From the NCBI RefSeq assembly GCF_001580995.1, contig NZ_LHZU01000146.1, positions 1 to 64,000 of the forward strand: DNA of 64,000 nt. Reading direction: 5' to 3'. The notes under the pieces were generated by a model. The model had not been told where the DNA came from and did no database searches. It saw nothing but the letters and a program-made list of their open reading frames with translations. Every line of letters starts with the position of its first letter. The first letter of the stretch is position 1. Source of the DNA: Acetobacter senegalensis (GTDB lineage: Bacteria; Pseudomonadota; Alphaproteobacteria; Acetobacterales; Acetobacteraceae). A program made the position numbers and the translations under genes. Of this stretch, positions 1 to 57,145 are shown piece after piece.

Positions 1-714
1 GAGCAGATGGAAGGCACGGTCAAATCCGATCAGGCGCTGGTTGATAACCAGAAGCTGCAGCTCACCTACTGTCATATCATCGCTCCGGTGGACGGGCGGA
101 TCGGTATTCGTGCGGTTGACCAAGGGAACTACGTTGCGGCAGGTCAGTCTGGCGGCCTCGCCATCCTGACGCAGATGCAGCCCATTTCCGTCATTTTCAC
201 ACTTCCGCAGGACCAGTTGCCGGACGTGGCGGAACAACTGCGCGCCAAGGGCTCCCTGCCAGTTGAAGCATGGGACAGTTCAAACACCCACAAGATTGCC
301 GATGGTACCGTCAGCACGCTTGATAGCCAGATTGACACCGCAACAGGCACCGTGCGCCTGCGTGCGCTCTACCCCAATACGGATGAACATCTCTTCCCCA
401 ACCAGTTCGTGAACGCACGCCTTCTGGTCAAAACGCTGGAAGACGTCATTCTTGTTCCCGCCACGTCTCTACAGACCGGCCCCTCCGGCCAGTTTGTGTA
501 TGTGGTGAAGGCAGACAACACGGTTGAAGTCCGCCCCGTGACGGTTGGCATTTCAGACGGCAACCGCACGGTTGTCAGCGGCGGCCTGAAAACCGGAGAC
601 CGCGTTGTGACGGATGGCACTGATCATCTGCGCGCTGGCATCAAAGTGACAATCCCGGCGGTTACTGAAACTGCCGAGAAATCTGACTCCTCATCAGGTG
701 CACCTGCCCCGTGA
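1..714 (+). CDS. mdtA: RND efflux periplasmic adaptor (MdtA-like), 5'-truncated by window edge
   Basis: This is the C-terminal ~237 residues of a membrane fusion protein that links the inner-membrane RND permeases to the outer-membrane channel. The reading frame is open from base 1, so the gene begins upstream of the window and the ATG at 7 is internal. Visible parts are the second half of the lipoyl domain ([18 protein letters not shown]), the beta-barrel ([11 protein letters not shown], then [11 protein letters not shown] and [13 protein letters not shown]) and the membrane-proximal domain. These segments resemble E. coli MdtA closely, as known from the family. The stop overlaps the next start (GTGA), which indicates translational coupling. 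The tail is rich in Ser and Ala. Confidence 0.93.
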
Positions 715-3700
715 ATCCCTCAGGTCTCTTTATCCGCAGGCCGGTCGCCACCACGCTGCTGATGCTCGCCATTCTGATGGCGGGCCTGCTTGGCTACCAT
801 TTCCTGCCTATCTCCGCCCTGCCGCAGGTTGATTACCCCACCATCACGGTAGAAACATTCTACCCCGGCGCAGGCCCGGATGTGATGGCGACCTCCGTTA
901 CCGCGCCGCTGGAAACACAGTTCGGCCAGATGCCCGGGCTGGATCAGATGACCTCCCGCTCCTCTGGCGGGGCTTCTGTCATTACCCTGCGGTTCAACCT
1001 GACCATGTCCATGGATGTGGCCGAGCAGGAAGTTCAGGCGGCCATCAATCAGGCCAACTCTCTCCTGCCGACTGACCTGCCTGCACCTCCCATTTATGCC
1101 AAGGTCAACCCGGCCGATACACCGGTGCTGACCTTGGGCATTACCTCCGCCACGGTGCCCCTGCCGGAGGTAGAGGACTATATCGACACCCGCCTTGCGC
1201 AGAAAATCAGTCAGATTTCAGGCGTTGGGCTGGTGACACTTTCAGGCGGCAACCGCAAGGCCATTCGCGTACGGGTGAACATTCCCAAGCTCACCTCCTA
1301 CGGGATTGATCTGGATACGCTGCGCACCACCATTGGCAACGTCAACGTCAACTCCCCCACCGGCACGTTTGATGGCGCAACCCGCGCCGCTACCCTGCGC
1401 GTGGATGGGCAGATCACCTCCATTGATACGTTGCTCAATCAGGTTATCGCTTATCAGAACAGTGGCCCCATCCGCATCCGGGATGTCGCGTCTGTTGTAA
1501 TCGGTGCGGAAAATACCCAGCTTGCTGCGTGGTCCAACCTCACCCCCGCCCTGATCATGAGCGTGCAGCGGCAGCCCGGCGCGAACGTGATTTCCGTGGT
1601 GGACAATATCAAGGCCACCCTGCCTGTCCTGCGCAAATCCCTGCCGCCAGGCATTGATATTGTGCCGCTGACAGACCGTACCACCACCATCCGCGCCTCC
1701 GTTGCGGATGTGGAGTTCGAGCTCTTTCTGGCGCTGGTGCTGGTTGTTGCCGTCATTTTTGTGTTCCTGCGCAATATCCCGGCCACCATCATCCCCAGCC
1801 TGTCCGTGCCGCTCTCCATCGTCGGCACGCTGGCCATCATGTATCTGCTCGGCTTCTCGCTGGATAACCTCTCGCTCATGGCGCTGACCATCGCCACCGG
1901 CTTCGTGGTGGATGATGCCATCGTGATGATCGAGAACATCTCCCGCTATGTGGAAGCTGGTGAAGACCGCATGACTGCCTCCATCAAGGGGGCCGGAGAA
2001 ATCGGGTTCACCATTATCTCGTTGACCATATCTCTGATCGCGGTGCTCATCCCGCTGCTGTTCATGGGCGATGTTGTGGGGCGTCTGTTCCACGAATTCG
2101 CCATGACACTGGCCATCACCATCATCCTGTCCGCCGTGGTGTCCCTTACGCTTGTGCCCATGATGTGCGCCCGTATCCTTACGGAACGCCCGCATGATGA
2201 AGCCAGCGCCACAACGGCGTTCCAGCGCTGGTCAGCCCGGATGGAAGTGGCCACGGAAAAGCTGATCGCCGCCTATGACCGCGCGCTGGATGTTGTGCTG
2301 GCGCACCGGGTGCTGACGTTGATGGTGGCCGTTGGCACGCTGGTGCTGACTGGGGTGCTGGCGTTTGTCATCCCCAAAGGGTTCTTCCCGGAGCAGGACA
2401 CGGGCGTCATCCAGGGCATTTCCGTTGCGGCCCAGTCCATCTCCTTTGAGAGCATGAAGACACACCAGCAGGATCTGGCAAAAGTTATCCTGCAAGACCC
2501 GGATGTGGTTTCCCTGTCCTCCTTTATCGGGGTGGACGGGCAGAATGCCACGCTCAATCAGGGGCGCTTTCTGATCAACCTGAAAGACCATGATTCCCGC
2601 TCCAGCAGTGCCGCGGAAATCGCGCGCCGCCTCTCGCAGGAAACGGCACAGGTTACGGGCATCAAGCTCTACATGCAGCCCATTCAGGACCTCTCTCTGG
2701 ATACAACCGTCACGGCCACCCAGTACCAGTTCCTGCTGGAAAACCCGGATTATGATGCGTTCAAGACGTGGATTCCAAAGCTTTTGGAAAAACTGAGGGC
2801 TGAACCCTCGCTCTCTGATGTCACGTCTGATCTTCAGGCTCAGGGGCTGGTGGCAAAAGTCACGCTCGACCGCACAACTGGCGCACGGTATTCCATCACG
2901 CCCCAGACCATTGATAACGTGCTCTATGATTCCTTTGGTCAGCGGCAGATTTCCACCATCTACACGCAATCCAACCAGTATCGTGTCATTCTGGAAGCTG
3001 ATCCCCGCTTCCAGAGCAGCCTGTATTCCCTCAACCAGCTTTATCTGCCCGGTATCAGCGGCAATTCCGGCGAAAGCGCATCCGGGCCCACCCGGTCTCC
3101 CACGTCCGGACTGGTGCCACTGGCGGCGGTCACCACGGTCTCGCATGAAACCGCACCGCTGCTGATCACCCATTTCGGACAGTTCCCGGCCACGACCATC
3201 TCCTTCAATCTGGCCAAGGGTTATTCGCTGGGTGACGCCACTGCCGCCATCCAGAAGGTGGAAAAGGACATCAACCTACCCGCCTCTTTCCAGACATCCT
3301 TTCAGGGAACAGCAGCCGCGTTTGAAGGCTCGCTGAGTAACGAACTGTTCCTTGTGGCTGCGGCACTGGTGGCGGTCTATATCGTGTTGGGCATTCTCTA
3401 CGAAAGCTTCATTCACCCTGTCACCATTCTGTCCACCCTGCCCTCCGCCGCCATTGGCGCATTGCTCACGTTGTGGGTGGCTGGCGCGGGTCTGGATGTC
3501 ATGGGCATTATCGGCATTGTGCTGCTGATTGGCATTGTGAAGAAAAACGCCATCATGATGATCGACTTCGCGCTTGAAGCCGAACGTGAACATGGCATGG
3601 ACTCTCTGCAATCCATCCGGCAGGCAGCCACCCTGCGTTTCCGCCCTATTCTCATGACCACCCTGGCGGCCATGCTGGGTGCGGTTCCCATGGTCATTTC

Positions 3701-3890
3701 GCAGGGCACGGGGTCTGAACTGCGTTACCCGCTGGGGCTGGCCATTATCGGGGGGCTGGCCCTGTCTCAGCTGCTCACGCTCTTCACCACTCCGGTTATC
3801 TATTACACGCTGGATACCTGGGCACACCGGTGGAACACGTGGCGGCAGCGCGGGCATACGCTTCCCCCTTCTGAGCAGACCGCACCGTGA
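711..3890 (+). CDS. mdtB: RND multidrug efflux permease, MdtB-like
   Basis: Inner-membrane proton/drug antiporter of the HAE1 RND family, 1059 residues (E. coli MdtB has about 1040). It opens with the typical [11 protein letters not shown] amphipathic start and TM1. The TM4 proton-relay pair Asp401-Asp402 sits in [14 protein letters not shown] second repeat carries [16 protein letters not shown] and [18 protein letters not shown]. The start is GTG within the 4-bp overlap with the adaptor stop. The loop just before TM7 holds a ~20-residue Ser/Gly/Pro insertion ([12 protein letters not shown]...) relative to my recollection of the family. MdtB and MdtC are known to form a heterotrimer, and the tandem arrangement here suggests the same. 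Confidence 0.95.
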
Positions 3891-6800
3891 ACTTCAGCCG
3901 GATCTTCATTGATCGGCCCGTCGCCACCATTCTGATGACTGTGGCACTCCTGCTTGCCGGAGCGCTGGGTTACAGAAGCCTGCCAGTGGCGGACCTGCCG
4001 AATGTCGATTTTCCCGTCATTCAGGTTCAGGCCCGTCAGGCTGGTGGCTCGCCGGAGGAAATCGCCAGTTCGGTGGCGGCCCCGCTAGAGCGGCATCTGG
4101 GCCAGATTGCAGACCTCACGGAAATGACGTCGCAATCGTCCCAGAACACCACGCGCATCACCCTTCAGTTTGCCTTGTCACGGGACATCAACGGGGCCGC
4201 GCGGGATGTTGAGGCCGCCCTTCAGGGCGCCCATGCAGACCTTCCCTCTTCTCTCCGCCAGAACCCCAGCTATTCCAAGGCCAACCCTAACGGCGCACCC
4301 GTTCTTATTCTGGCCCTGACATCGGACATCCATACGCAGGCGCAGCTCTACGATTATGCAACCAACGTTCTGGTGCAGCATCTTTCACAGATCCGCGGCG
4401 TTGGTCAGGTGGAAATCGGGGGCAGTTCGCTCCCGGCAGTACGTGTGGAAATCAATCCGCTGCCGTTGTACCGTTACGGGATCGGGTTTGAAGATATCCG
4501 TGCGGCCCTTGCTTCTGCCAATGCGCACGGCCCCAAAGGCATTATTGATCAGAACGGCACACGCTTTACCCTTGATACCAATGATCAGGCCAGAAGTGCC
4601 CAATCCTATCGGGATCTGATTATTGCGTGGCGTAACAGCCGCCCGGTACGGTTGTCAGATGTGGCAACTGTTGTGGACAGCGTTGAAGACCGTCGCAATG
4701 CTGGCTACTTCAATAGCGCTCATTCTGTTCTGGCCATTGTTTTTCCGCAGGCCGGGGCAAACGTTATTGAAACAGTTGATGAAATCAACGCCAAACTCCC
4801 CATGCTTCGCGCCGCCCTGCCCGGCGGTGTAGACCTGCATACGGGGCTGGACCGTTCACTGACCATTCGCGCTTCTCTGGCGGATACCCAACTCACCCTC
4901 GTTATTTCGGTCGTGCTGGTGGTGCTGGTGGTACTGGGGTTCCTTCATTCCGTCCGCATGACCCTTATCCCGGCCATTGTGGTGCCTACCTCCATTATCG
5001 CCACCTTCGGCGTCATGCGGTTTCTGGGCTACTCGCTGGACAATATGTCCCTGATGGCGCTGACGGTCTCCACCGGTTTTGTGGTGGATGATGCCATTGT
5101 GGTAATGGAAAACATTGCGCGCTACATTGAACAAGGCCTTTCCCCGCGTGATGCGGCGCTAAAAGGCAGTAATGAAGTTGCCTTTACAGTTATCTCAATT
5201 TCCATCTCGCTGATTGCGGTTTTCCTGCCCATCCTGCTTCTGGGCGGTCTGGCTGGACGCCTGTTTCATGAATTTGCCATGACAGTCTCCATCACCATTC
5301 TGATCTCCATGGTGTTGTCTCTTACCCTCACCCCCATGATGGCGGCGCAGCTTCTGAAACCCACAGCCCCGCATAAACCTTCAAACAAGGTAACGCAGTT
5401 TCTCATTACGCTGACCACAAACCTGCTGGACAGCCTGCAAAGAGGATATGAGCGCTCTCTGAATACTGCGCTGAAATACAGCAAGATTGTCATTCTCTCT
5501 CTGCCATTTACGCTTGTTGTCATTGTGGCGCTTTTCATCAGCATGCAGAAAGGGTTCTTCCCGACTGAAGACACCGGCCTGCTGATGGGTCATTTGCAGG
5601 GAGATCAGAACATCTCCTTTCAGGCGCTCTCCAAAAAACTGATAGAAGTGCAGAAGGTTATCAAAACTGACCCGGATGTGGAGAGCGTTGCCAGCTTCAT
5701 GGGGAGCCGCGGTTCATCCAACTCCGCCAACATGTTCCTGCAACTTAAAGACAAAAGCGAAAGAAGCGATACACCAACGGAACTGATTGCCCGCATTGAA
5801 AAAAAACTGAGTCATATGGTCGGGGCCCAGTTCTTTCTGATGCAGCCGGGTGCCGTGCGCGCAGGTGCGCGCCAGAGCAATGCGTCCTATCAGTACACCC
5901 TTGAAGGAGAAGATGCGTCCGAGGTTTACCAGTGGACGGACAAACTCCTCGCTGCGCTGGCCAAACATTCAGAACTGACTGAGCTGTCTTCAGATGTTCA
6001 GCAGGGTGGGTCCGCCATTGATGTGGATATTGATCGAGACACATCCTCCCGCGTCAGCATTACGCCGCAGCTTCTTTCCAACACGTTGTATGATGCATTT
6101 GGTCAACGTGCGGCGTCCGTTATCTATAACCCCTTGAACCAGTATCGCGTGGTTATGGAAGCCGACCCTACCTATTGGTCAAACCCCAACAGTTTGATGC
6201 AGGTGTGGGTCAGCGTATCCGGCGGCTCGGCCGCAGGCGGCACAGCCTCCAACACGGTACGCGTGCGCAATACAACTGGCCGGGATTCCTCTGGCAGCAG
6301 TTCCGCCTCAACGTTAAGCAGTGAATCCTTCAAGAACCAGATTGCTAACTCACTGGCTGGCGGAAACAGCGTGTCCACAGGGTCTGCCGTTTCCACATCG
6401 TCGTCCGCCATGGTGCCGCTTACGCTGGTTTCCAAACTCAGGCCGTCTCAAACGCCCCTCTCCGTCAACCATCAGGGGCAATCGGTCGCCTCGACCATTT
6501 CCTTCAATCTGGCCAACGGAGTTTCTCTCAGCGCTGCCACACGGATTATTCAGACAGCGCAGGTGGAACTACACATGCCGCCAACCATCCATGGCAGCTT
6601 CGCTGGCAACGCGGCGCAGTTTCAGAAAACCGTCAACAATGAACCCATTCTGATCCTGGCAGCACTGGCGGCGGTTTATGTGACACTTGGGGTTCTTTAT
6701 GAAAGCTATGTTCACCCCCTCACCATTCTTTCCACCCTGCCCTCCGCAGGTGTTGGGGCGCTGCTGGCCTTGCAACTGGCCGGAGAAGAATTTTCTCTGA

Positions 6801-7186
6801 TCGCCATGATCGGTGTTATTCTCCTGATCGGCATTGTGAAAAAGAACGCCATCATGCTTGTCGATTTTGCCATCGCAGCCGAACGGGAACATAATCTTTC
6901 TCCGCTTGAGGCCATCCACACAGCCTGCCTTCTGCGCTTTCGCCCGATCATGATGACGTCTCTGGCTGCTGCACTGGGCGCATTTCCGTTGATCATTGCC
7001 AATGGCTATGGGGCCGAACTTCGCAGGCCTTTGGGGATCGCCATTGTCGGTGGGTTGATCGTCAGCCAGGCGCTCACCCTCTATACAACGCCTGTGGTTT
7101 ATCTGATGTTGGATACCCTGCGCCTGCGCTTTAAACAGATAAAGATCCGGCCCTTTTTCTTCTCCCGTAACCCGCAAGATACCTGA
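3887..7186 (+). CDS. mdtC: RND multidrug efflux permease, MdtC-like, with Ser-rich periplasmic insertion
   Basis: Second RND permease of the operon, 1099 residues, clearly longer than MdtC homologues (about 1025). Core features are intact: [15 protein letters not shown] at the N-terminus, the TM4 acidic pair Asp401-Asp402 in [13 protein letters not shown], and [18 protein letters not shown] near the C-terminus. The extra length is mainly a Ser/Gly/Thr-rich low-complexity stretch at residues ~775-840, in the second periplasmic porter/docking loop. The start is GTG, overlapping the mdtB stop by 4 bp. It probably pairs with MdtB in a mixed trimer; that is inferred from gene order and family knowledge. 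Confidence 0.95.
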
Positions 7187-7195
7187 AGTTTTCCG

Positions 7196-8773
7196 ATGAA
7201 ACCCATCTTCTCCCGTCCGCTTTCTCGTCGCCTGGGTATCCTGCTGGCGCCTCTTGTTCTGACCGGTTGCATGGTGGGGCCTTCCTACAAACGGCCGACC
7301 GCTATTATATCCCCCAAATTCAAGGAACTGCGGCCTGCCCCCGGCTGGAACTACGCCAACCCCGCTCTGGCTGAAATTCCCAAAGGGACATGGTGGACCA
7401 TCTATAATGATCCCATCCTGAACCAGCTTGAGGCACAGGTTGAAATCAACAACCAAAACGTAAAGGAATATGAGGCGCGTTACCGCAGCGCGCGCGCCAC
7501 CATCAATTCCGTCCGCGCCCAACTTTATCCCACACTCAGCGGCTCGCTTTCCTTCAACAGGCAGAGCTCGGGACGTGGCTCCCGTTCCAGTGGCACGATC
7601 ATCAATTACGGGAGTGATGGGTCCTCCTCTTCTGGTTACACGCCTTCCAACACTACGGAAAACACGTACGGAATGGGGCCAACGGCTTCATGGGATCTTG
7701 ATCTGTGGGGTAAGATCCGCCGACAGATTCAGGCACAGGTTACGGAAACACAGGCCACTGCGGCTGATCTGGCGAATGCCAAACTGTCCTATCAGGCGCA
7801 GCTTGCCACGGCCTACTTCAACATGCGTTATCAGGACAGCCTTTATGATCTGCTTGAACGCAACGTAAAGTTTTACGAACGCTCCTATCAGATTACCCGC
7901 AACCAGTATGAAGCTGGCACGGCAGACCCGACCACCCTGCTTCAGGCCCAGACACAGCTTGAACAGACACGCGCGCAAGCCACCGCCACGCAGGCAAGCC
8001 GGGCACAGTATGAACACGCCATCGCTGTCCTGATCGGCAAGCCCCCCGCTGAAGTTTCCATTGCTCCCGGTGCCCTGCCCCGCGCCATTCCGGCCATACC
8101 GGTTTCCGTACCGGCCCAGCTTCTTGAACGCCGACCAGACGTTGCGGCGGCAGAACGCCGGATGGAAGAATATAACGCCCAGATTGGCGCAGCCATTGCC
8201 GCGTTCTATCCAGACGTTCAATTGACGGCTTCCTATTCCTACAGTGGTGACCCAGTTGGCACTCTGGTGCAGGTTGCCAACCGTATCTGGTCTCTTGGTG
8301 CTTCGGCTACGGAAACACTGTTCTCCGGCGGCAGCCGCACCGCCGCCGTGCATGAAGCGGATGCAACGTATGACAACTATGTTGCCACCTATCGCCAAAC
8401 CGTTTTGACAGCATTGCAGAATGTGGAAGATCAACTCTCCAACCTGCGCGTGCTGGCCCAGCAGGCTGACGAGCAGCAGGTTGCACTGGAAGCCGCCAAC
8501 CGAGCTGTTACCGTGGCCCTGAACCAGTATCTGGCTGGCACACAGATCTACACTACGGTTATCACATCGGAAGTCACCGCGCTTTCCAATGCAGAAACGG
8601 CCTTACAAATTCAACAGAACCGTATTCTGGATTCCGTCACGCTTATTCAAAATCTTGGCGGTGGCTGGAATGCTTCCGAACTGCCGAGCAAAAACTCCAT
8701 GCAGAAAGATAACCCCTTCCTGCCTTCTTTCATTCAGAAAGATAAAAACTTCCTCCCGAACGACCACAAATAA
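7196..8773 (+). CDS. Outer-membrane efflux lipoprotein, NodT/OprM family
   Basis: TolC-like outer-membrane channel, 525 residues, completing the MdtABC-type pump. The signal peptide ends in a lipobox (LVLTGC, Cys25), so the mature protein should be lipid-anchored, as usual for the NodT subgroup. Two OEP repeats are visible: LNQLEAQVEINNQNVKEYEARYRSARATI.. in the first half and the typical LLERRPDVAAAERRMEEYNAQIGAA with AFYPD in the middle. A Ser/Gly-rich insertion (SGRGSRSSGT.. to ..SSSSGYTPSN) lies in the first extracellular loop region. It starts 9 bp after mdtC and is followed by a strong terminator, so it is the last gene of the operon. Confidence 0.95.
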   Translation: MKPIFSRPLSRRLGILLAPLVLTGCMVGPSYKRPTAIISPKFKELRPAPGWNYANPALAEIPKGTWWTIYNDPILNQLEAQVEINNQNVKEYEARYRSARATINSVRAQLYPTLSGSLSFNRQSSGRGSRSSGTIINYGSDGSSSSGYTPSNTTENTYGMGPTASWDLDLWGKIRRQIQAQVTETQATAADLANAKLSYQAQLATAYFNMRYQDSLYDLLERNVKFYERSYQITRNQYEAGTADPTTLLQAQTQLEQTRAQATATQASRAQYEHAIAVLIGKPPAEVSIAPGALPRAIPAIPVSVPAQLLERRPDVAAAERRMEEYNAQIGAAIAAFYPDVQLTASYSYSGDPVGTLVQVANRIWSLGASATETLFSGGSRTAAVHEADATYDNYVATYRQTVLTALQNVEDQLSNLRVLAQQADEQQVALEAANRAVTVALNQYLAGTQIYTTVITSEVTALSNAETALQIQQNRILDSVTLIQNLGGGWNASELPSKNSMQKDNPFLPSFIQKDKNFLPNDHK

Positions 8774-9911: not shown

Positions 9912-12900
9912 TTAGGCGAGAACGATGTCTTTCACTCGTTCAGCTATTTCTGCTGTAACGTCCTGAGTAAACAGGCTCTGCACCACACTATCTTTCAATT
10001 CCACAATAATGTTCAACGGCATCACGCCCACCGTGTCATTGACGATATTCACCAGTGACATGCGATAATTGCCATTCAACGGTTTTGAGAAACCGCTGTT
10101 GAAATTGATATTGGCCGTAAAGCCACAGCACAGAGGCGCATCAGAGAAAATGCCGCTGACATCATTGCGGATCGCACGCGTAGTGCGGAAATAAACGACA
10201 TCATCCTCGTCTTCACTCACGCAAGCCAGGTACACCTGCCCCGCCGCACGAAGATTATGCATGAAGGTCCAGCCCTTCATGTAAATGCCATTCCCATCAA
10301 CTTCCGGCGGCAGATCACCAATCAGATCACCGCAATTGTCGATAAAATACACCATATCGCTACTGTGGTCGCGTTCCAGAACATCCGTGTCGATATCAAC
10401 CATCTTGATGTTTCTGAGCTTACCATCGCGATGAGAAACCCGAGCAAAATCACTCAGGATCTGCTTGGTTGTCGGGTCTTCCTGTTCGATTTCAACAATT
10501 TTACCTTCTTTTACTGTAATCTGGCAGCTGGTTACAGCAAAGCTGGCTTTGGTGTTGATAACGTTCATCAGCGCAATGCGGTATGTGCCTTCACACCACT
10601 TCCCACGCAGAGCGGCCTGCCCGGCAAACCCGGAACGCCGCGGCGCATCCGGATAAACAGTCAGAACGTCGGGGCGAGATTCCCGGATACAGGGCAGGAA
10701 GATAATGGGCTGATCCTCATTACCAATCAGCACCGTATAAAGCGTTCCGGAAGCGTTGACGCGCGGCACTGCGTACCAACCACGAATATGGAATTCGTAG
10801 GCTTCTTCAAAATCAGATGGCTCGCTTTCCGCAAAGACCAGGAAGCAGACATCATCAATATAGAATTTGGCATCCTGAATGGAGAACCAGTCTGTAACAG
10901 GCTCGGGCAGCTCCACCGTAAGATCACGCGCTGTCGGCGGATCAAAGATATGACGGGGCGGAGCCTGATGGCGCCAGGACGGATGCGGTAGCAGATGCAC
11001 CTGTCCTGCATCAATCTGCATTTCCGAGAACCCAAGACGCGTAACCGGGGCAACCTCGTTATAGATTTCAAAGAGGCTGTCGCCATAGCTCTGCCCGTCA
11101 GGCCACAGATCAGGCGAGATATTGGCCATTATCTGCTGACGCAGGGGCTCTGAAGAACGGAGCAGTTCCAGACGCTCAAGCACTTTTGCCGGGCTATTGA
11201 GCTTCACAGCAAAGCCGTTCTCGCCGTCTATCACACGATCATGCAGCGCGCCAATGTCACTGACAATGGGAATAAGCCCCGTCTGCCAGGCTTCTGAGAG
11301 AGAAATGCAATAGGTTTCGGGCCATATGCTGAGATTGAGGGCAACATCAGCAATTTTCAGCTTATCAATATTCCCCATGGAATACTGACCATGAACCGTA
11401 ATGTTGGGCCGGTTCAGATCTGCCAGAACCTGTTTGTATTCCGGGTGAACGGCCCCAAAAATATGGAAATGGAAATGGTCGGGGTGCGCCAGTTCAAACA
11501 GGCTCAGAATAGTATCTGCCCCTTTGGTACGCAGGAAGTTCCCGACCACGGCAACGCCCAAGGGGCGACCATTCAACGGAGCATATTCTTTGGGTGTGAC
11601 CGGCAAGGTGCTTTCAGGAGACGGAATACCCAGGACAGAGCATTTTTTCGTCTCAACGACAGGATAGACTTCGCTGATCAGATTGTAAGAGTGTTCAGAC
11701 CCAAACAGGAAAGCGTCAACGGAATGCAGCATGTTTGCAATAAAGGCGCGACGGGTCTGCTCGCCCCCGAATTCAACATTTTCTGCATTTTTCAGAATAA
11801 TGTCATAGGCAACAACGGATTTTGCCTTTTCTTCATCATACTGAAAGCTCTGATCGAGCAGATTGTAGCGTGACGAGACCAGCCAGAAATCATGTGCGGA
11901 AAAGACCACCCCTGCCCCGCAGGACTTCGCGATAATCGGCAAAGACAACGCGTGGTGGCCAAGGTGCTGGAAATGCACAAGGTCAATATTATAATGGCTG
12001 ATGACATTGGAGAATGCCATTTCTTCCGGACCATCGCACATAGCGTCTGTCCAGCCGACTTCCGGCACATCAAAACGTTCGATTTCTTCCCCGTCGGCCG
12101 TCAGGAAGCGACATTTGTCCCCACGGCGCAGCCAGTAATAAAAATCGACCTTTCTTCCCAGCAGATTGCACAGGGTTTCCTGATAGACCTCAACCCCGCC
12201 CCAGGCCGCTTCATAAACGGTGGAATGCGTACACATCAGCACCTTGAGCCGCCGGTTTTCAGCAGGCAGTGCAGGCGGCTGGACGCGACCAAAATTGGCG
12301 CCCGAAACTTCCATAATCGTGCGAATGCGATTTTCATAAAGATGCTTGTTCTGAACATCTTTTTTCGCACTCTGTGCCGACCGCCTTCTCAGAGTGGGGT
12401 TGCTGAGCAGAGCATCAATGGCGGCGATCACATCGTCAACGTTACGGCACAGCATGGTGCCGTGCACATCGTCGAAATATTCCTTGCCCATCACCTCGGG
12501 GGCTTCAACCACCTGAGCCGTCCCTGCCAGCCCAAGTTCATAGAAACGCGGTCCCGGAGCAGTTGCCTGGCTGGTGTCCCCATGACTTGCATAGTCGCGG
12601 AACATGGTCAGCGTAACGGCACTCGCGTTGGCGAAATCAATAAACGCTTCATGACTGACCGGACGCTGAATGGCAATTTCAGCAAGATCGCTTGGCAGAG
12701 GCGGCAGATATTCGTTGCCCGGGCAGATCAGTTTCAGACGCGCATCAGGAAATGCGGTGATGACGTGCCGCAGGGTTTCCACACGGTTGGGCCACATGGT
12801 GCCCGCAAAGAAGATATCGTAATCAAGCTCATCCGCTTTCTTGATTTTACGATCATGCAGAGACACAGATGCAGCCAGCGGCAGATAATGGCCTTTACTG

Positions 12901-13238
12901 CCGTAAGCCTCCACGCATACGGGATCATTGGTAAAGACATGATCGAACAATCCTGCGTTCGCAGCATTGAATTCTTTCATGAACGGATCCTCGAATGTCC
13001 AGAGGATCATGGTTTTGAATGCCGGACGCACACGTTGCAGAAGAGGAATATTAATACGCTGCCCGTCTATGCAGATGAGCGTTTCATGCTCCCCTTTGGA
13101 AGCCAGCTCACCCAAGGAGCGGTTGTCTGCAACAACAACCTGATCCTTCCCCAGAATCTCCCGTGCGGCCCGCTCGATGGCGAGTGTCAGGTAGGCATTC
13201 GGGTTGTGCGTATAGTTTGTATTATAAATAACTGCCAT
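9912..13238 (-). CDS. Large multi-domain glycosyltransferase (CgeB-like + GT4 + duplicated C-terminal domain)
   Basis: 1108 residues, predicted cytoplasmic, with no signal peptide or membrane segment seen. Residues ~1-315 resemble the CgeB/YkvP glycosyltransferase-like family (LWTFEDPF.., HYLPLAASV, YDIFFAGTMWPNR) and are paralogous to the protein at 16423. Residues ~330-740 form a GT4-type module (AAWGGVEVYQETL.., VVGNFLRTKGADTIL, then IWPETYCISLSEAWQTGLIP with the family's donor-site glutamate). Residues ~783-914 and ~960-1087 are two copies of one domain with conserved GW, R-x-DV, DAPxxxGF and GxYR motifs. The likely role is glycan assembly on an O-antigen, exopolysaccharide or glycoprotein; acceptor and sugars are unknown. 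It is probably the last gene of a three-gene operon, 97 bp after its neighbour. Confidence 0.85.
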   Translation of the reverse strand: MAVIYNTNYTHNPNAYLTLAIERAAREILGKDQVVVADNRSLGELASKGEHETLICIDGQRINIPLLQRVRPAFKTMILWTFEDPFMKEFNAANAGLFDHVFTNDPVCVEAYGSKGHYLPLAASVSLHDRKIKKADELDYDIFFAGTMWPNRVETLRHVITAFPDARLKLICPGNEYLPPLPSDLAEIAIQRPVSHEAFIDFANASAVTLTMFRDYASHGDTSQATAPGPRFYELGLAGTAQVVEAPEVMGKEYFDDVHGTMLCRNVDDVIAAIDALLSNPTLRRRSAQSAKKDVQNKHLYENRIRTIMEVSGANFGRVQPPALPAENRRLKVLMCTHSTVYEAAWGGVEVYQETLCNLLGRKVDFYYWLRRGDKCRFLTADGEEIERFDVPEVGWTDAMCDGPEEMAFSNVISHYNIDLVHFQHLGHHALSLPIIAKSCGAGVVFSAHDFWLVSSRYNLLDQSFQYDEEKAKSVVAYDIILKNAENVEFGGEQTRRAFIANMLHSVDAFLFGSEHSYNLISEVYPVVETKKCSVLGIPSPESTLPVTPKEYAPLNGRPLGVAVVGNFLRTKGADTILSLFELAHPDHFHFHIFGAVHPEYKQVLADLNRPNITVHGQYSMGNIDKLKIADVALNLSIWPETYCISLSEAWQTGLIPIVSDIGALHDRVIDGENGFAVKLNSPAKVLERLELLRSSEPLRQQIMANISPDLWPDGQSYGDSLFEIYNEVAPVTRLGFSEMQIDAGQVHLLPHPSWRHQAPPRHIFDPPTARDLTVELPEPVTDWFSIQDAKFYIDDVCFLVFAESEPSDFEEAYEFHIRGWYAVPRVNASGTLYTVLIGNEDQPIIFLPCIRESRPDVLTVYPDAPRRSGFAGQAALRGKWCEGTYRIALMNVINTKASFAVTSCQITVKEGKIVEIEQEDPTTKQILSDFARVSHRDGKLRNIKMVDIDTDVLERDHSSDMVYFIDNCGDLIGDLPPEVDGNGIYMKGWTFMHNLRAAGQVYLACVSEDEDDVVYFRTTRAIRNDVSGIFSDAPLCCGFTANINFNSGFSKPLNGNYRMSLVNIVNDTVGVMPLNIIVELKDSVVQSLFTQDVTAEIAERVKDIVLA

Positions 13239-13335: not shown

Positions 13336-16323
13336 TTATGACGTTACAGGAAAGCCTTCAACCTTATTGCCTGACCGTTGCGGGAATTGAGACAGAATAT
13401 TTCTGATCTCATGGGTATAAGCCTCAGCATTATTTTCGCGCGCTATCCGCCGCAAAGCATTATAGCGCAGCTTTTGCCACAACTCCCTTTCCTCATAAAG
13501 CGACACTATTGCGTCAGCGAAAGAGGCCGCATTTCCTGTAGCGGGTGCCAACATATCTTCACCAGCCTGCCAGCCCACCTGCTCACACAGGATGTCTGAC
13601 GCCACAATTGGCAAACCATGTGCTGCGGCCTCGTGAATTTTATACGGTATCCCACCGGCAAAACGCGTCGGCGCCACAAAGATACGATGCGTATCATAGT
13701 ACGGCGAGACTTCAGGCACGCGGCCGACAATCTCAACACGCGGATTGAGCAGCAGGCGCGACACATCAACTTCAGGATTCAGATAGCCGCAAATCCGGAA
13801 TTTTACATCTTGCGGTAATTTACCATCCAGCTTCGGCAGAACGTCGCTTACGAACCAGATCAGTGAATCCAGATTGGGAGAGTCTGTGTCGTGTATCGCC
13901 CCAACAAACAGGATATCCCGCCGCTCCTTGAAACCGGGTGTAAAGCGACGCGCCTGTTGTAAATGACCAAGCACATGCACATCACTATGCCCCAAACGGC
14001 GTAGGATGCTGGCATCTTTTTGGTTAACAGCCACAAACCTGTTCACATACCAGGCTGCGCGGAATTCCTTCTGAAGCAGTTCATCCAGGGTATGCTGTGG
14101 CGTTTCACCTTTCAGCACCCATTTCTGAAGTTCCCGCGGGGCGGCTACGGCCTCAGTGTCCAGAACAATCTTGCTTCCGGCCAGCGCCGCTGCGCATTCC
14201 GCAAACACCGGTGCCAGCCTGTCCAGATTATGCGTACGCGCTATCCAGATAACATCATAATATCCCGGACGGGAGTTGAGAAAGCCCGCCAGATCCTCAA
14301 GCCCCTTATTCCACATGACTTCCGCGCGGTCAGGAAAACCGGTGTATATATCTTCCGTCATGCCAAGAGGGCGGAAAATGGGGTATGCGGTAACATGACA
14401 ATTCAGATCCCGCACCATCACTGTCATGATGTCATTGGACCGGGTAAAGCCTGACCCCAGATGCCTGAACGGCAGGAAATCCTCCAGAAACAACACCCGC
14501 TTATCAAACGACCGCGCTGACCGCGCCAGAAGGTCTTTCTGGGCGTTCCGGGGATAACGGGACGCAATATAGTCTGCATTCTTCTCAATGAAGAGGCCCT
14601 GGTTCCTCTGCATCATGTGAACGCTTTCTATCGTGCCAGACGTTCCATATTCATAATGAAGAATCACAACACCGGGATCATAAATGACATCCCATCCATG
14701 CCTACGGATACGAACGCAAAGGTCCGTCTCCTCAAAATAAGCTGGGGCATAATCATCCAGAAACCCATTCAGGCTACGCAGCAGATCTGTTCTGACCATA
14801 AGGAAGGCACCAGAACAAAAATCCACGGAGCGAACATAGTTTGCTTCCGGGCAATCGGGGGATTCATCTCTCAAATAGCCGCAAACGGACCCATTTTTCC
14901 AGACAATGCTTCCTGCCTCCTGCAGAAGGCCGTTGGTGCGCACTAGTTTGGCACCCACCGCCCCTGCCTGAGGTTCTTTCACAAAGCGAGCCAGAGCCGT
15001 TTCTATGGCGCGCGGCATCAATTCAAGATCATTATTTAAATAGAGGGTAAAATCTGCCTGAACATGCTGTAGCGCAGCATTACACCCCTGTAAAAAACCA
15101 ACATTCCCTAATGTTCTAATAACATTGATGCCGCGAACATGGCGCTCAATATGCCGAATTTCATCCGATGAACCGGAATCAACAAGCACAACCTGAATCT
15201 GGCCGCCGAAATTCTCGCGCAAGGAATTAAGTGCTGTCATCGTCATGGCGAAATTATTATGCGCCACCATGATCACACTCAGTTCTGGGTGATCATACGA
15301 GAAATCGAGCCCGCCACGCAGGAGAAGAGGCAGGCGGATACGGCACATTTCCTGATAAACAGCCTTGGAAATAAACTCCCGTTCCTCTGAAGAATATCCT
15401 CCTTCTTCCACAACACCACCATGCACCATGTAATGAACAAAAAAACTGGGATACCGTTGTGACGCAATTTCACTTTTTACTTTGGGATTTTCTGCATACA
15501 CCCGGAGATTGACATCCCGGGCGGGCTGACGGAGTTCATACTGACCGTTTTTTACAAAATGCTCATAGCAGTTTCTGAACGCCCCATGCTTGACCGCGCC
15601 GGCCACATCTTCATAGGCCTGAGCGTAGAATTGCTCGGAGAAAAAAGCGTTGGGATTAAATGCTTCTGGCGTCGGGTTCGTCAGATAATGATGCAGCGGC
15701 CCCTGCCAGTGAACCGCAGCTTTCTCCAGATCAGGATAAGTCTCCAGATACCAGACAGGATCAAAATACCAGGATAGCTTTTTGTCGTGCAGGACATTGT
15801 CAGGAAACGCCTTGAGGAAGCTGATATACGCGCCCTCATCTGGCTCTACAACAAAGTCTGGGGCTTCTGCCAGGAAAACAACAGGGTCAAAAAAAGGCGA
15901 AGAGGGACAATTGAGACGGCTTCCCTGCTTCAGGTAATGGTCATACCCATTCCTGAACCCGTTTCTTTCAATGTCTTCTCGTGAAAAATCCAGAAACTTC
16001 CGCCGGTAATAGTCTTCATCAAATAGCCAATGAGGACTTTTATCCCAAAAGCCGACTTTGCAGTAATGATCAAACCCGGATTTGAACTGACCGGAACAAA
16101 CCTGTTCCCTGACATCAGCATACCGCTGTGTATACCATTGTTCATCAAAAAACGGGTTAGGGGAATGCTGTAAAGCGCCCCCAAAACGATCATAAAATTC
16201 TCTGACTTCGTCTTCCGATGTCGCATTTAAAAAATTCAGGACATGGTTATATTTTGTTTTATACCAATCGAAGTCGAATTCACTCCAATCAAAACTCTTT
16301 TTTGTGTCAGAGTGAACCATCAT
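13336..16323 (-). CDS. Glycosyltransferase with N-terminal FD-WY repeats, GT2 and GT4 modules
   Basis: 995 residues. The N-terminal ~300 residues contain at least five degenerate ~40-residue units of the type FFDexWYxxxYxDV...G.F.xgydHYxxxG (for example at residues 58, 99, 144, 186 and 227), a repeat known from several bacterial glycosyltransferases. A GT2 domain spans about 347-590, with LSVIMVAHNN, a DxD-like LYLNNDLELMP motif and FEETDLCVRIRRHGW. A GT4-like domain follows at about 640-985 (VIWIARTHNLDRL, DILFVGAIHDTDSPN, EAAAHGLPIVAS). One chain may therefore add two sugars. Two ATG codons stand in tandem at the start and the Shine-Dalgarno is poor. The gene lies between the other two glycosyltransferase genes and is probably cotranscribed. 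Confidence 0.88.
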   Translation of the reverse strand: MMVHSDTKKSFDWSEFDFDWYKTKYNHVLNFLNATSEDEVREFYDRFGGALQHSPNPFFDEQWYTQRYADVREQVCSGQFKSGFDHYCKVGFWDKSPHWLFDEDYYRRKFLDFSREDIERNGFRNGYDHYLKQGSRLNCPSSPFFDPVVFLAEAPDFVVEPDEGAYISFLKAFPDNVLHDKKLSWYFDPVWYLETYPDLEKAAVHWQGPLHHYLTNPTPEAFNPNAFFSEQFYAQAYEDVAGAVKHGAFRNCYEHFVKNGQYELRQPARDVNLRVYAENPKVKSEIASQRYPSFFVHYMVHGGVVEEGGYSSEEREFISKAVYQEMCRIRLPLLLRGGLDFSYDHPELSVIMVAHNNFAMTMTALNSLRENFGGQIQVVLVDSGSSDEIRHIERHVRGINVIRTLGNVGFLQGCNAALQHVQADFTLYLNNDLELMPRAIETALARFVKEPQAGAVGAKLVRTNGLLQEAGSIVWKNGSVCGYLRDESPDCPEANYVRSVDFCSGAFLMVRTDLLRSLNGFLDDYAPAYFEETDLCVRIRRHGWDVIYDPGVVILHYEYGTSGTIESVHMMQRNQGLFIEKNADYIASRYPRNAQKDLLARSARSFDKRVLFLEDFLPFRHLGSGFTRSNDIMTVMVRDLNCHVTAYPIFRPLGMTEDIYTGFPDRAEVMWNKGLEDLAGFLNSRPGYYDVIWIARTHNLDRLAPVFAECAAALAGSKIVLDTEAVAAPRELQKWVLKGETPQHTLDELLQKEFRAAWYVNRFVAVNQKDASILRRLGHSDVHVLGHLQQARRFTPGFKERRDILFVGAIHDTDSPNLDSLIWFVSDVLPKLDGKLPQDVKFRICGYLNPEVDVSRLLLNPRVEIVGRVPEVSPYYDTHRIFVAPTRFAGGIPYKIHEAAAHGLPIVASDILCEQVGWQAGEDMLAPATGNAASFADAIVSLYEERELWQKLRYNALRRIARENNAEAYTHEIRNILSQFPQRSGNKVEGFPVTS

Positions 16324-16422: not shown

Positions 16423-17412
16423 CTACGCGATGAGTTTTTCTTTCCGAAGAATGGAAAGAACATCATGAATGCGGTTGCCGTAGGTATGCTCATCCAGCGT
16501 CCGTTTCTGGGCCTGCTGAGCAACTTCCAATCTACGGTCCGGGTCATCCAGAAAGGTTTCAATCAGTTCATCAAAATCCCGCTTATTGGAAAATGTCGGG
16601 ATCTCATCGGCCGTGAAGTAGCGGCGAAGTTCATAGGTATCTTCATGGAAAATCTGAAATGCACCTGCCGCGGCCGCTTCAAATGTACGCGGGCCAGGCG
16701 TAGACGGAGAGATCATGAAGCGCTTGTTTTCAAAGTGCAGGGAGCGCCCCAAATTCAGCACAATTTTAGAGCGCTGATACAGTTCAACCAGTTGATGCTT
16801 TTCGATCCGGGCATCTGAAAATCCAACACCGAACTCCCCCCAACCCGGGCCGATGATGCGAATATTCAAACGCCGCAAAGACGGCATCAGGTTACGCACA
16901 ATGTCTTTACGGCTGGTAAAAGCGACCCCACAGAACAGGACATCAATATTCCTGTTGGTTTCATCCATGACAGGAGCGTAATGGAGTTCACGGCTGGCTG
17001 CCAAGGGAAGGTGATAGACCCTATCCCGCTGGTAAAAGTTTGAACCCCAGCGGTCACAGGAGAAAATGACGTCAAAATCGTCCGTAATGCGGTAGTTGGC
17101 GTCCTGTTCGTAAGGATCTTCTGTTGCCCAGAAAACGGTCGTCGCGCCGATCTTCTTGGCCTCACGACTGACTTCCCCAAAATAAATACTTTCCGGCAGA
17201 TAAGAGCCAATAGAAAAAACAATAGTTGGCTTAAGCTGAGCTATTGATGCTGCCGCCCCACTAATATGGACAGCCGTTACATTCTCCGCCCCAATACATT
17301 CGGCCCAACCATCCATAATAGATTCACGAATCTGGGCATTTGCCTGAGATTCATACCGACCACCACTACAAATCAAAACACGCTGGTCTGTTTCAAGGCC
17401 TGAGAATGTCAC
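16423..17412 (-). CDS. CgeB-family glycosyltransferase
   Basis: 329 residues from the GTG at 17412. I prefer this start because AAGGGG lies 6 nt upstream; an in-frame TTG 12 codons earlier (17448) lacks such a site. The sequence shows two Rossmann-like halves: VLICSGGRYESQ and VFWATEDPYEQD in the first, VLFCGVAFTSRKDIVRNL, RIIGPGWGEFG and GPRTFEAAAAGAFQI in the second. This matches the CgeB/YkvP glycosyltransferase-like family, known from spore-coat and surface glycan modification. It is the first gene of the glycosyltransferase set and resembles the N-terminal third of the 1108-residue protein at 9912. Confidence 0.85.
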   Translation of the reverse strand: MTFSGLETDQRVLICSGGRYESQANAQIRESIMDGWAECIGAENVTAVHISGAAASIAQLKPTIVFSIGSYLPESIYFGEVSREAKKIGATTVFWATEDPYEQDANYRITDDFDVIFSCDRWGSNFYQRDRVYHLPLAASRELHYAPVMDETNRNIDVLFCGVAFTSRKDIVRNLMPSLRRLNIRIIGPGWGEFGVGFSDARIEKHQLVELYQRSKIVLNLGRSLHFENKRFMISPSTPGPRTFEAAAAGAFQIFHEDTYELRRYFTADEIPTFSNKRDFDELIETFLDDPDRRLEVAQQAQKRTLDEHTYGNRIHDVLSILRKEKLIA

Positions 17413-17851
17413 GTTATTCCCCTTGAGAGATTTCACAAAAGCATCCAAACATAAATATAAATAAAAATCTCGGCTTTTTTACGCAGGCAGGGTATTTTTG
17501 TAAAGTTACATTCCGTGCACACATCGCGCCAGAAACCAGACCTGAATAGTTCTCATTGCGAATATAAAAATAAAAATTTTATTATTTATTTATTGAAATT
17601 CATAGATCGAACTATTCATCCAAAAAAAACAAGCGATCTATACCAAAAAATATAAAAAATATGTCCCTCGTTCTATTCTTTCATTTCTTTTTACTCAAAA
17701 AAAGCTTTCTATAGAAAAATCAAATATATGTTTTAAAAATAAAAACAATCCACGGGAAATACCCCACTCTTCCAAGTTAAATATTTATTACACAAGAATA
17801 AAATAGTGGCCGAATGCCAATACTATATCTCTCGACAGTTCAGAACAGGCA
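17413..17851. other. AT-rich non-coding spacer upstream of the glycosyltransferase genes
   Basis: No gene is seen. From about 17560 to 17830 the sequence is strongly AT-rich with many A and T tracts, in contrast with the flanking coding regions. It should carry the promoter of the minus-strand glycosyltransferase operon, but no pair of hexamers stands out because almost everything is AT. Such composition often accompanies acquired surface-polysaccharide loci and may bind a nucleoid silencer (inference). Confidence 0.6.
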
Positions 17852-39705: not shown

Positions 39706-43884
<4,179 letters not shown>

Positions 43885-43977
43885 GTGCGGAAGCCCCCAA
43901 AGGGAAATGGGGCGCCGGAACTGCTGTTCCGGCTACCCCTTCAAAATAAGAACGGAGAATGGTGCTGAGCCTCACCT

Positions 43978-46900
43978 TTATTCTGCCCCCTGCTCCAGCT
44001 CAACATTCAGACCAAGAGACTTCAGTTCCTTGATCAGAACGTTAAAGCTTTCAGGAATACCGGCTTCAAAGTCATCCTGCTCACGCACAATGGCTTCATA
44101 AACCTTGGTACGACCGGATACGTCATCCGATTTCACCGTCAGCATTTCCTGCAGCGTATAGGCAGCGCCATAAGCTTCAAGCGCCCAGACTTCCATTTCC
44201 CCAAAGCGCTGACCACCAAACTGCGCCTTACCACCCAGCGGCTGCTGCGTAACAAGCGAGTAAGGCCCGATGGAACGCGCATGGATCTTGTCATCAACAA
44301 GATGGTGCAGCTTGAGCATGTAAATATAACCAACAGTGGTCTTACGCTCAAACGGCTCGCCCGTGCGGCCATCAATCAACTGGGACTGACCGGATTTGTT
44401 GACGCCCGCTTTTTCAAGCATGGCTTCAATATCCGGAATGGAAGCACCATCAAACACCGGCGTGGCGATAGGAACGCCCTTGCGCAGATTATTCGCCAGT
44501 TCAATGAGTTCATCATTGCTCATGTTAGCAATGTCGTCCTCATAGATCTTGTCGCCATACACGTCTTTCAGACGATCAAGCAGTTCCTGACGCTTCTCAC
44601 CCGTGCGCTGATAATCATCAACCAGATTACCAATATCACGGCCAAGATTTGCGCAGGCCCAACCCAGATGCGTTTCCAGAATCTGCCCCACGTTCATACG
44701 GGACGGCACACCCAGCGGGTTCAGCACGATATCAACAGACGTCCCATCTTCCAGGAACGGCATGTCTTCAACCGGCACCACGCGGGACACCACACCCTTA
44801 TTTCCGTGACGACCGGCCATTTTGTCACCCGGCTGAAGCTTACGCTTCACGGCAACAAACACCTTGACCATCTTCATCACGCCGGGCGGCAGTTCATCAC
44901 CGCGCTGCAGCTTCTCGACCTTGCTATCAAAGCGAGCCTGAATTTTCTGCACAGAGGCATCAAATTCACGACGCAGCGTTTCCAGCTCAGCCATGACCGC
45001 ATCAGAGGCCACAACAATGTTGCGCCATGCACCACGGGGCTGCTCATCCAGAACCGCGTCCGTGATTTCCGTGCCAGAACGGATACCCTTGAACCCGGCA
45101 CCGGCAATCTGACCCAGCAGTTTTTCACGCAGACGGCTGTAGAAGGAGCGTTCCTGAATACCGCGTTCATCGTCACGGTCTTTGGACAGGCGTTCGATTT
45201 CTGCCCGTTCAATCGCCATGGCGCGTTCATCTTTATCCACGCCACGACGGGAGAAGACGCGCACGTCAACAATGGTGCCGGTGGTGCCAGGCGGCAGACG
45301 CAGGGAGGTATCACGCACGTCAGACGCTTTTTCACCAAAGATGGCACGCAGAAGCTTTTCTTCCGGCGTCATCGGGCTTTCACCCTTTGGCGTGACCTTA
45401 CCGATGAGGATATCACCGGGGTTCACTTCAGCCCCAACGTAAACAATGCCAGCTTCGTCCAGGTTACGCAGCGCTTCTTCACCCACGTTGGGGATATCAC
45501 GCGTGATTTCTTCCTGACCCAGCTTGGTATCACGCGCCATGACTTCAAATTCCTCGATATGGATCGAGGTAAAGACGTCATCTTTCGCAATACGTTCGGA
45601 GATCAGGATGGAATCTTCGAAGTTGTAACCATTCCAAGGCATGAACGCGACCAGCACGTTACGGCCCAGAGCCAGTTCACCCAGTTCGGTGGACGGACCA
45701 TCCGCAATAATGTCCCCGGCCTTCACCTGATTGCCCACATGCACCAGCGGACGCTGGTTGATACAGGTGGACTGGTTGGAACGGGAATATTTACGCAGAC
45801 GATAGATATCGACGCCCTGCGTGGACCCATTGGCATCCGTTGCACGCACAACGATACGTGCCCCGTCAATCTGGTCCACAATCCCATCACGCTTGGCAAC
45901 GATGGTTGCACCAGAGTCATGAGCCACAGCAGCTTCCATGCCAGTGCCAACGAGCGGCGCATCGGAACGCACCAGCGGCACAGCCTGACGCTGCATGTTG
46001 GAACCCATCAGTGCGCGGTTCGCGTCATCGTTCTCAAGGAACGGAATGAGCGCGGCGGCAACGGAAACAAGCTGCTTGGGTGACACGTCACAGGCCGTCA
46101 CTTCAGTGGGGGGCACCAGACGGAAGTCCCCACCACGACGAACGGAGACCAGCTCGTCCGTCAGTGCGCCATCAGCACTCTGCTTGGCGTCAGCCTGAGC
46201 AACGATCAGCTTTTCTTCTTCCATGGCGGAAAGATATTTCCAGCCATCCTGAAGAACGCCGTCCTTCACCAGACGATACGGTGTCTCAATAAAGCCGTAC
46301 TTGTTCACCTTGGCATAGGTTGCCAGGGAGTTGATCAGACCAATGTTCGGGCCTTCCGGCGTTTCAATCGGGCAGATACGACCATAGTGAGTCGGGTGAA
46401 CGTCACGCACTTCAAAGCCTGCACGCTCACGGGTCAGACCGCCCGGACCCAGTGCTGAAAGACGACGCTTGTGCGTGACTTCAGACAGCGGGTTGGTCTG
46501 ATCCATAAACTGGCTGAGCTGGGAAGACCCGAAGAACTCGCGCACAGCAGCAGCAGCAGGTTTGGCATTGATCAGATCATGCGGCATGACCGTGTCGATA
46601 TCGACAGAGCCCATACGTTCACGGATAGCGCGCTCCATACGCAGCAGACCGACACGATACTGGTTTTCCATCAGTTCGCCCACAGAGCGGACACGACGAT
46701 TCCCCAGGTTATCAATATCGTCAATCTGGCCGCGGCCATCCTTGAGTTCACACATCACCTTGATGGTGCGCAGGATGTCTTCCTTACGCAGCACGCGCAC
46801 GGTATCCGGCACATCCAGATCAAGACGCATGTTCATCTTCACGCGACCAACGGAAGACAGATCATAACGGTCAGGATCAAAGAACAGGCCGTGGAACATG

Positions 46901-57016: not shown

Positions 57017-57145
57017 GTGTCCCACCTCCGGTAAAGACACACAAATGGCTGCATCCAGATGAATCAGTCATACCTACGTGAGATACAGATATCCTTCTCA
57101 AGCGCCAATAAAAATGCTTTTAATCAGGCCGTATAAATGCATTTG

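Follow-up and report, generated by a model that had tools for sequence, protein, structure and literature searches.

The 1108-residue glycosyltransferase encoded on the reverse strand of this DNA (the window, meaning the whole stretch of 64,000 nucleotides which was analyzed) ends in two copies of one module. The question raised by the locus is whether these copies are truly related, what kind of domain they form and what such a pair might contribute to an enzyme which already has two catalytic heads.

A duplicated module behind two glycosyltransferase heads

The gene and its surroundings contain the following features, all on the reverse strand.

9912..13238, reverse strand: gene for the 1108-aa two-headed glycosyltransferase with the duplicated C-terminal module (ORF, Pfam, end-to-end conservation in Acetobacteraceae)
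12249..13238, reverse strand: CgeB-like GT-B head, residues 1-330 (Pfam Glyco_trans_1_2, 8.2e-15; weak DUF3880)
11049..12248, reverse strand: GT4 head with E641-x7-E649, residues 331-730 (Pfam Glycos_transf_1, 3.6e-19)
10893..11018, reverse strand: linker, residues 741-782, with the invariant run 758-768 (QAPPRHIFDPP) (alignment of 24 proteins)
10482..10892, reverse strand: module copy 1, residues 783-919, predicted Ig-like beta-sandwich, slower evolving
9966..10355, reverse strand: module copy 2, residues 962-1091, predicted Ig-like beta-sandwich, faster evolving, with a structural match to TarS C1
9857..9898, reverse strand: terminator-like hairpin just 3' of the 1108-aa gene (consensus scan)
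13336..16323, reverse strand: 995-aa neighbor with FDxxWYxxxYP-type repeats followed by GT2 and GT4 modules (Pfam, cassette loci)
16423..17448, reverse strand: 341-aa CgeB-like glycosyltransferase, upstream cassette member (Pfam, cassette loci)

The initial annotation had described a two-module glycosyltransferase, and two heads were indeed found ahead of the copies. The first belongs to PF13524 (Glyco_trans_1_2), matched at residues 157-310 with 55.5 bits (cut-off 25), a type which we take to bear the name CgeB; residues 1-314 of the full-length model matched GT-B enzymes, with a best Z of 21.6 over 300 residues. The second belongs to GT4 through PF00534 (Glycos_transf_1), matched at residues 560-705 with 69.4 bits (cut-off 26.4). 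The E-x7-E motif is a mark of the GT4 family, and both E641 and E649 were invariant in 24 of 24 aligned proteins, within a run of 14 invariant residues (636-649) covering this motif. Beyond residue 705 the protein had no Pfam match at E <= 0.1.

The linker ahead of copy 1 is strongly conserved in one place. Its 11 consecutive residues at 758-768 (window 10935-10967) did not vary in any of the 24 proteins and form the longest invariant run outside both heads; in the whole protein the run at the GT4 motif alone exceeds it, and a run in the first head (143-153) has the same length. The AlphaFold model of the full-length protein gave pLDDT < 50 for residues 733-777. The linker may serve as a hinge, or it may dock onto the GT4 head. 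The hairpin 3' of the gene is only suggestive as a terminator, since the consensus scan found 13 such hairpins in the region with 9.8 expected (sd 3.3).

The copies had been placed at about residues 783-914 and 960-1087. This location was right and the limits were slightly off, our own being about 783-919 and 962-1091; the correspondence of residues 783-1087 to positions 10892-9978 was correct. The motifs said to be common to both (GW, R-x-DV, DAPxxxGF and GxYR) are present as G820-W821, R855-P-D857-V858, D864-A-P-R-R-S-G870-F871 and G884-T-Y-R887 in copy 1, and as G989-W990, R1024-N-D1026-V1027, D1033-A-P-L-C-C-G1039-F1040 and G1056-N-Y-R1059 in copy 2, and the spacings are equal as claimed, with 37 residues from the G of GW to the D of DV and 13 from there to the G of GF in each copy. 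BLASTP aligned the two across 113 columns with 20% identity (50.8 bits, E 4e-13). The Smith-Waterman score was 123, which is 22 sd above the mean of shuffled sequences (27.9, sd 4.2) and was reached by 0 of 2000 shuffles, and family profiles of copy 1 and copy 2 built from the 24 proteins were matched by hhalign at 99.7% (E 6e-26). Chance similarity is ruled out by these three comparisons, and the duplication is real.

Predicted fold and distant relatives

An Ig-like beta-sandwich is an all-beta sandwich of two sheets with about 7-9 strands. AlphaFold, given 24 sequences of the C-terminal region, returned two matching beta-sandwiches (mean pLDDT 80.7, pTM 0.70) which belong to this type at the level of the fold, and each copy is therefore predicted to be an Ig-like beta-sandwich. 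The expectation of a beta-rich region was thereby borne out, and the likeness of the two copies extended to the model, where both copies, starting at the GW strand, show the same succession of strands and a single short helix. The full-length model (pLDDT 71.0, pTM 0.37) gave no placement of the modules with respect to the heads.

Plain Foldseek returned antibody and receptor chains (TM 0.14-0.17, rmsd 14-17), and viral models reached a TM of up to about 0.21 on query length. A second-look alignment to 999 chains was then considered, whose seven best rows came from two glycosyltransferases, TarS and RmlT, all against copy 2. The best of them was TarS entry 5u02 (Z 8.2, rmsd 2.9, 106 residues), with 5tz8 at Z 8.1, both falling on TarS residues 350-481, the C1 domain; RmlT, identified by PDB titles, contributed five entries at Z 7.2-7.5. 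The next rows were multi-domain alignments with rmsd >= 15, followed by individual Ig or FnIII domains with Z around 6, and the single-domain rows had an rmsd of 2.9-4.3 to Ig or FnIII-type domains. For copy 1 the best single-domain row was an IL-6 receptor chain (Z 6.3). The Z of 8.2 was seen for copy 2 only, and the tool describes values of this size as common in models that lack clear kin. The structural argument therefore lies in the fact that all seven top rows are glycosyltransferases, and not in the size of the score.

The copies are very probably non-catalytic. A confident match to a known catalytic or carbohydrate-binding family was looked for and none was found; no enzyme family matched the C-terminal region, in agreement with the initial annotation, and by titles and ranges the listed structural rows are sandwich domains, so a catalytic domain finds no support. 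The module had also been called impossible to assign to a named family, and it lies in no curated family searched: it had no match of worth in Pfam, NCBIfam, PHROG or PDB sequences (best E 0.19 or worse in the last). Among 37 Acetobacteraceae modules scanned at E <= 1, none (0/37) matched the bacterial Ig domain Big_7 (PF17957, cut-off 24.1 bits), and TarS_C1 (PF18674) and CBM families were likewise absent from the Pfam matches. A search of the genome with PF18674 gave no match at E <= 10, in a test where no control genome passed the family cut-off either.

More distant relatives were found with profiles. At the level of the class, a single-module profile (A2) matched 4 of 385 genomes: the source genome, two others from the family and one weak match (E 0.0095). 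At the level of the phylum it matched 6 of 398, namely the source genome, three family members, G842 and, weakly, a genome in which the frame is broken. Weak matches were set aside (G599, E 0.0095; G901, E 0.005, where the frame is interrupted by two stops). In G842 the match (E 3.3e-6, among the 398 phylum genomes) lies at the end of a 792-aa protein which matched no Pfam family and reads as a probable polytopic membrane protein. Its gene (L133:4520-6895:-) adjoins genes for UbiA, FAD_binding_4 and short-chain dehydrogenase proteins, a set which presumably resembles decaprenyl-phosphoryl-arabinose genes and looks as if lipid-linked sugar donors were involved. Among 99 genomes searched, the only other one with a relative of this protein was G1249 (L135), where a large protein with no catalytic Pfam match carries the module at its C-terminus.

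In G837 the module stands at the end of a PMT_2 protein. This genome first came up at E 0.0093 in a search of 203 genomes, a number in which chance alone should yield about two matches of that quality. It was accepted only because its tail has a family of its own (such tails occur in 35 of 131 genomes of the order, counting G837 itself) and because of profile comparisons, whose shuffled controls make no correction for the choice of G837. The window family was linked to the G837 type by hhalign at 90.4% (E 1.4e-6, score 40.6); none of 149 column shuffles scored above 18.2, and the reversed alignment scored 10.0. It was linked to G842 and G1249 together at 96.8%, and these two in turn to the G837 type at 86.1%. 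Profiles of single copies gave 5.8% (copy 1) and 31.4% (copy 2) against the G837 type, so this link depends on the pooled profile. Both G837-type proteins scanned whole or nearly so (G837 and G888) matched PMT_2, and all nine tails scanned matched Big_7 at E <= 1, three of them passing the cut-off. The order GW, x-DV, GF, G-x-h is shared by window-family modules and G837-type tails. On these sequence profiles, the module is judged to join single-copy tails of other proteobacteria through intermediates, some of which score as Pfam Big_7.

Conservation, cassette and age of the copies

A search with the C-terminal region matched 32 of 200 genomes in the family, and a second profile (A1) matched 91 of 395 genomes in the order. 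All 57 cassette loci fetched came from Acetobacteraceae, some of their genera being placed in this family on what we take to be their accepted classification. The three glycosyltransferase genes stood together in every one of the 57, a few as split frames, in the order 341-995-1108 in 5 loci and 1108-995-341 in 52. In the Gluconobacter frateurii representative the cassette comes after genes for EPSP synthase, cytidylate kinase and an S1-domain protein, which from their domains we read as aroA-cmk-rpsA. The FDxxWYxxxYP-type repeats at the start of the 995-aa protein matched no Pfam family at E <= 0.1. Frames of the 1108-aa homologue were split or broken in L041, L045, L048 and G126, which may reflect sequencing error in draft assemblies.

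Mean identity to the window protein was determined for 55 full-length relatives (L045 and L048 were omitted as split frames, and L058 is the window itself). Each of the two heads came to 69%, the stretch of copy 1 (residues 781-920) to 54%, and the stretch holding copy 2 together with its linker and tail (residues 921-1108) to 35%. Regular ORFs of 1040-1180 aa with both copies numbered 56, from the 55 loci and the window, and among matching ORFs of the enzyme type in this size range none had one copy only. The core motif of both copies was kept in 24 of 24 aligned proteins. Invariant residues in these amounted to 28 of 137 in copy 1 and 14 of 130 in copy 2, with 11 of the latter 14 coinciding with copy-1 invariants in our own pairing of alignment positions. 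Both copies tend to be acidic, with a net charge over the 24 proteins from -7 to +1 (mean -3.5) for copy 1 and from -10 to -2 (mean -5.9) for copy 2.

Some genomes of the group depart from this layout. The G130 protein has a single copy, which belongs to the copy-1 type and is followed by about 30 residues, so two copies are not essential; G086 has two. In G013 a module is found at the N-terminus of the counterpart of the 995-aa protein (L121:3717-7253:-, 1179 aa) and again at the N-terminus of a 476-aa paralogue (L120:6700-8127:-), in which the repeats are kept and the glycosyltransferase part is gone. This paralogue adjoins the housekeeping genes which mark the cassette site in other genera, the G013 cassette itself being elsewhere.

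A tree of 37 modules, rooted at its midpoint, was divided by its main split into copy-1 and copy-2 types with support of 98/97, which rules out a recent tandem duplication. The copy-1 side includes the single G130 copy and has the second G086 copy at its base, so a separate duplication in the G086 line is possible. The copy-2 side includes both N-terminal modules of G013, whose branches are long and whose placement is unsure. The simplest reading of the tree would be one duplication predating the sampled genera. Spread on plasmids or phages was considered and rejected, as the C-terminal region had no match in either collection and the G837-type tail was unmatched on plasmids.

Co-occurrence was followed in 38 Acetobacter genomes, 18 with the module and 20 without it, the latter being those among the genomes listed. 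A relative of the 995-aa protein was present in all 18 genomes with the module and, near full length, in 11 of the 20 listed genomes without it (one with an internal stop), with a partial match in one more. In five of these 11 module-less Acetobacter loci (L136-L140; 18 kb inspected in four and 3.7 kb in one) the other two cassette genes did not stand beside the 995-aa gene. The 995-aa enzyme can thus do without the 1108-aa enzyme. As to the two-headed core, 29 module-less genomes (20 Acetobacter and 9 others of the family) gave no clear copy at E <= 1e-20, and the positive control G216 was detected; one of the 29 had a frame of 1568 aa which matched weakly and in part (28% across 289 residues). 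The core was therefore unseen without its tail in the searches run, and the module keeps constant company with the two-headed enzyme in Acetobacteraceae. The combination of a CgeB-like GT-B head, a GT4 head and two modules appears, from sequence comparison, to be confined to Acetobacteraceae among the genomes searched.

Comparison with TarS and possible roles of the modules

The initial annotation had spoken of a new architecture. As regards the combination of a CgeB-like GT-B head, a GT4 head and two modules this appears to hold, and among the matches listed in literature searches no description of the 1108-aa protein was recognized. The kind of architecture is not new, since TarS has a tandem Ig-like tail and related single modules end other proteins. 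According to published work, TarS, the S. aureus wall teichoic acid beta-GlcNAc transferase, carries two tandem C-terminal Ig-like beta-sandwiches, C1 and C2, which form its trimer interface, and the 1108-aa enzyme shares this layout of tandem Ig-like domains (here of predicted fold) C-terminal to a catalytic part. The same work describes a single GT-A/GT2 head and basic grooves in C1 and C2, whereas the enzyme of the window is two-headed and its copies are acidic, which makes an anionic polymer ligand like that of TarS unlikely. No sequence kinship between TarS and the modules was detected (37 modules at E <= 1; genome at E <= 10). Truncation of TarS, as reported there, raised the Km for the acceptor polymer from 1240 uM for the complete enzyme to 2840 uM, left kcat/Km nearly unchanged and lowered intrinsic processivity, so that, as far as this account goes, the role of C1/C2 is modest even in TarS. 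RmlT, the L. monocytogenes rhamnosyltransferase, is similar in that the match to copy 2 reaches its residue 511 of about 600; RmlT itself is known here by PDB titles only, and no structure paper was found in literature searches. The Big_7 tails of the G837 type resemble the modules in motif order, in the profile link described above and in their C-terminal place, and differ in being single copies on a different enzyme (PMT_2).

We favor, with moderate confidence and by analogy with TarS, a reading of the copies as tandem, highly diverged Ig-like accessory modules which most simply stem from one old duplication and which may hold acceptor and/or partners. The modules would hold the glycan acceptor, or keep enzyme copies or cassette partners together, or both, and the two catalytic heads could in this way act repeatedly on the same growing surface glycan. 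Copy 1 would be the conserved contact surface, a part for which it is the likelier candidate because it has twice the invariant residues of copy 2, and copy 2 might be a freer spacer or self-association domain. Acceptor holding or oligomerization, an effect on processivity, a division of labor between the copies and a surface polysaccharide as the product are all suggested here from comparison.

The same observations can be read in other ways. It is possible, if somewhat unlikely, that the Ig-like copies bind no sugar and instead join the three cassette glycosyltransferases into one complex. The three genes staying together in 57 of 57 loci despite their differing order is consistent with such docking, as are the N-terminal modules of G013 on the 995-aa counterpart and its truncated paralogue, but the 995-aa enzyme does not need the 1108-aa partner, being found in 11 of the 20 listed module-less Acetobacter genomes and, in five loci, without the other cassette genes beside it. 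The G013 modules also indicate that the module moves among cassette members; that it is a movable docking tag, passing among the members of the cassette and assembling one multi-enzyme glycan synthase, is a bolder version which we consider doubtful. True carbohydrate-binding modules, with a defined sugar ligand and no part in oligomerization, are an unlikely reading. Copy 1 does have 17 invariants beyond the 11 shared ones (R867, R868, R878, W881 and R887 among them), and a pullulanase appeared among the lower structural rows (Z 5.3, but with an rmsd of 11.5); TarS C1/C2, the structural analogue, are likened to pullulanase CBM48/CBM68 in the TarS work. The copy-1 invariants may nevertheless serve the fold or a contact with the GT4 head, and none of the Pfam matches of the 37 modules at E <= 1 was to a CBM family. 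That the pair are spacers or passengers contributing little by themselves is very improbable: residues 921-1108 do evolve fast, at about half the mean identity of the heads in the 55 proteins, but the core motif persists in both copies of all 24 aligned proteins and every module-matched ORF of the enzyme type between 1040 and 1180 aa carries the two together.

The reading as TarS-like accessory modules would assign a fold and a testable role to a module which is absent from the family libraries searched and which acetic acid bacteria retain in a conserved enzyme. It would also tie together the tails of different glycosyltransferases, namely the two-headed GT-B enzyme, PMT_2 membrane enzymes (by sequence profile) and the GT-A enzyme TarS (by structure alone). 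Should glycan length or processivity depend on the tail in every one of these, the tail would represent a general device for the synthesis of bacterial surface glycans.

Elsewhere in the window, two RND-type efflux gene sets were observed at 711-8773 and 50902-57040, flanking rpoC and rpoB (39706-48150). AcrB-family pumps are encoded at 711-3890 and 53846-57040 and an outer-membrane efflux protein at 50902-52518, and the stretch 3887-8773 probably belongs to the first of these sets.
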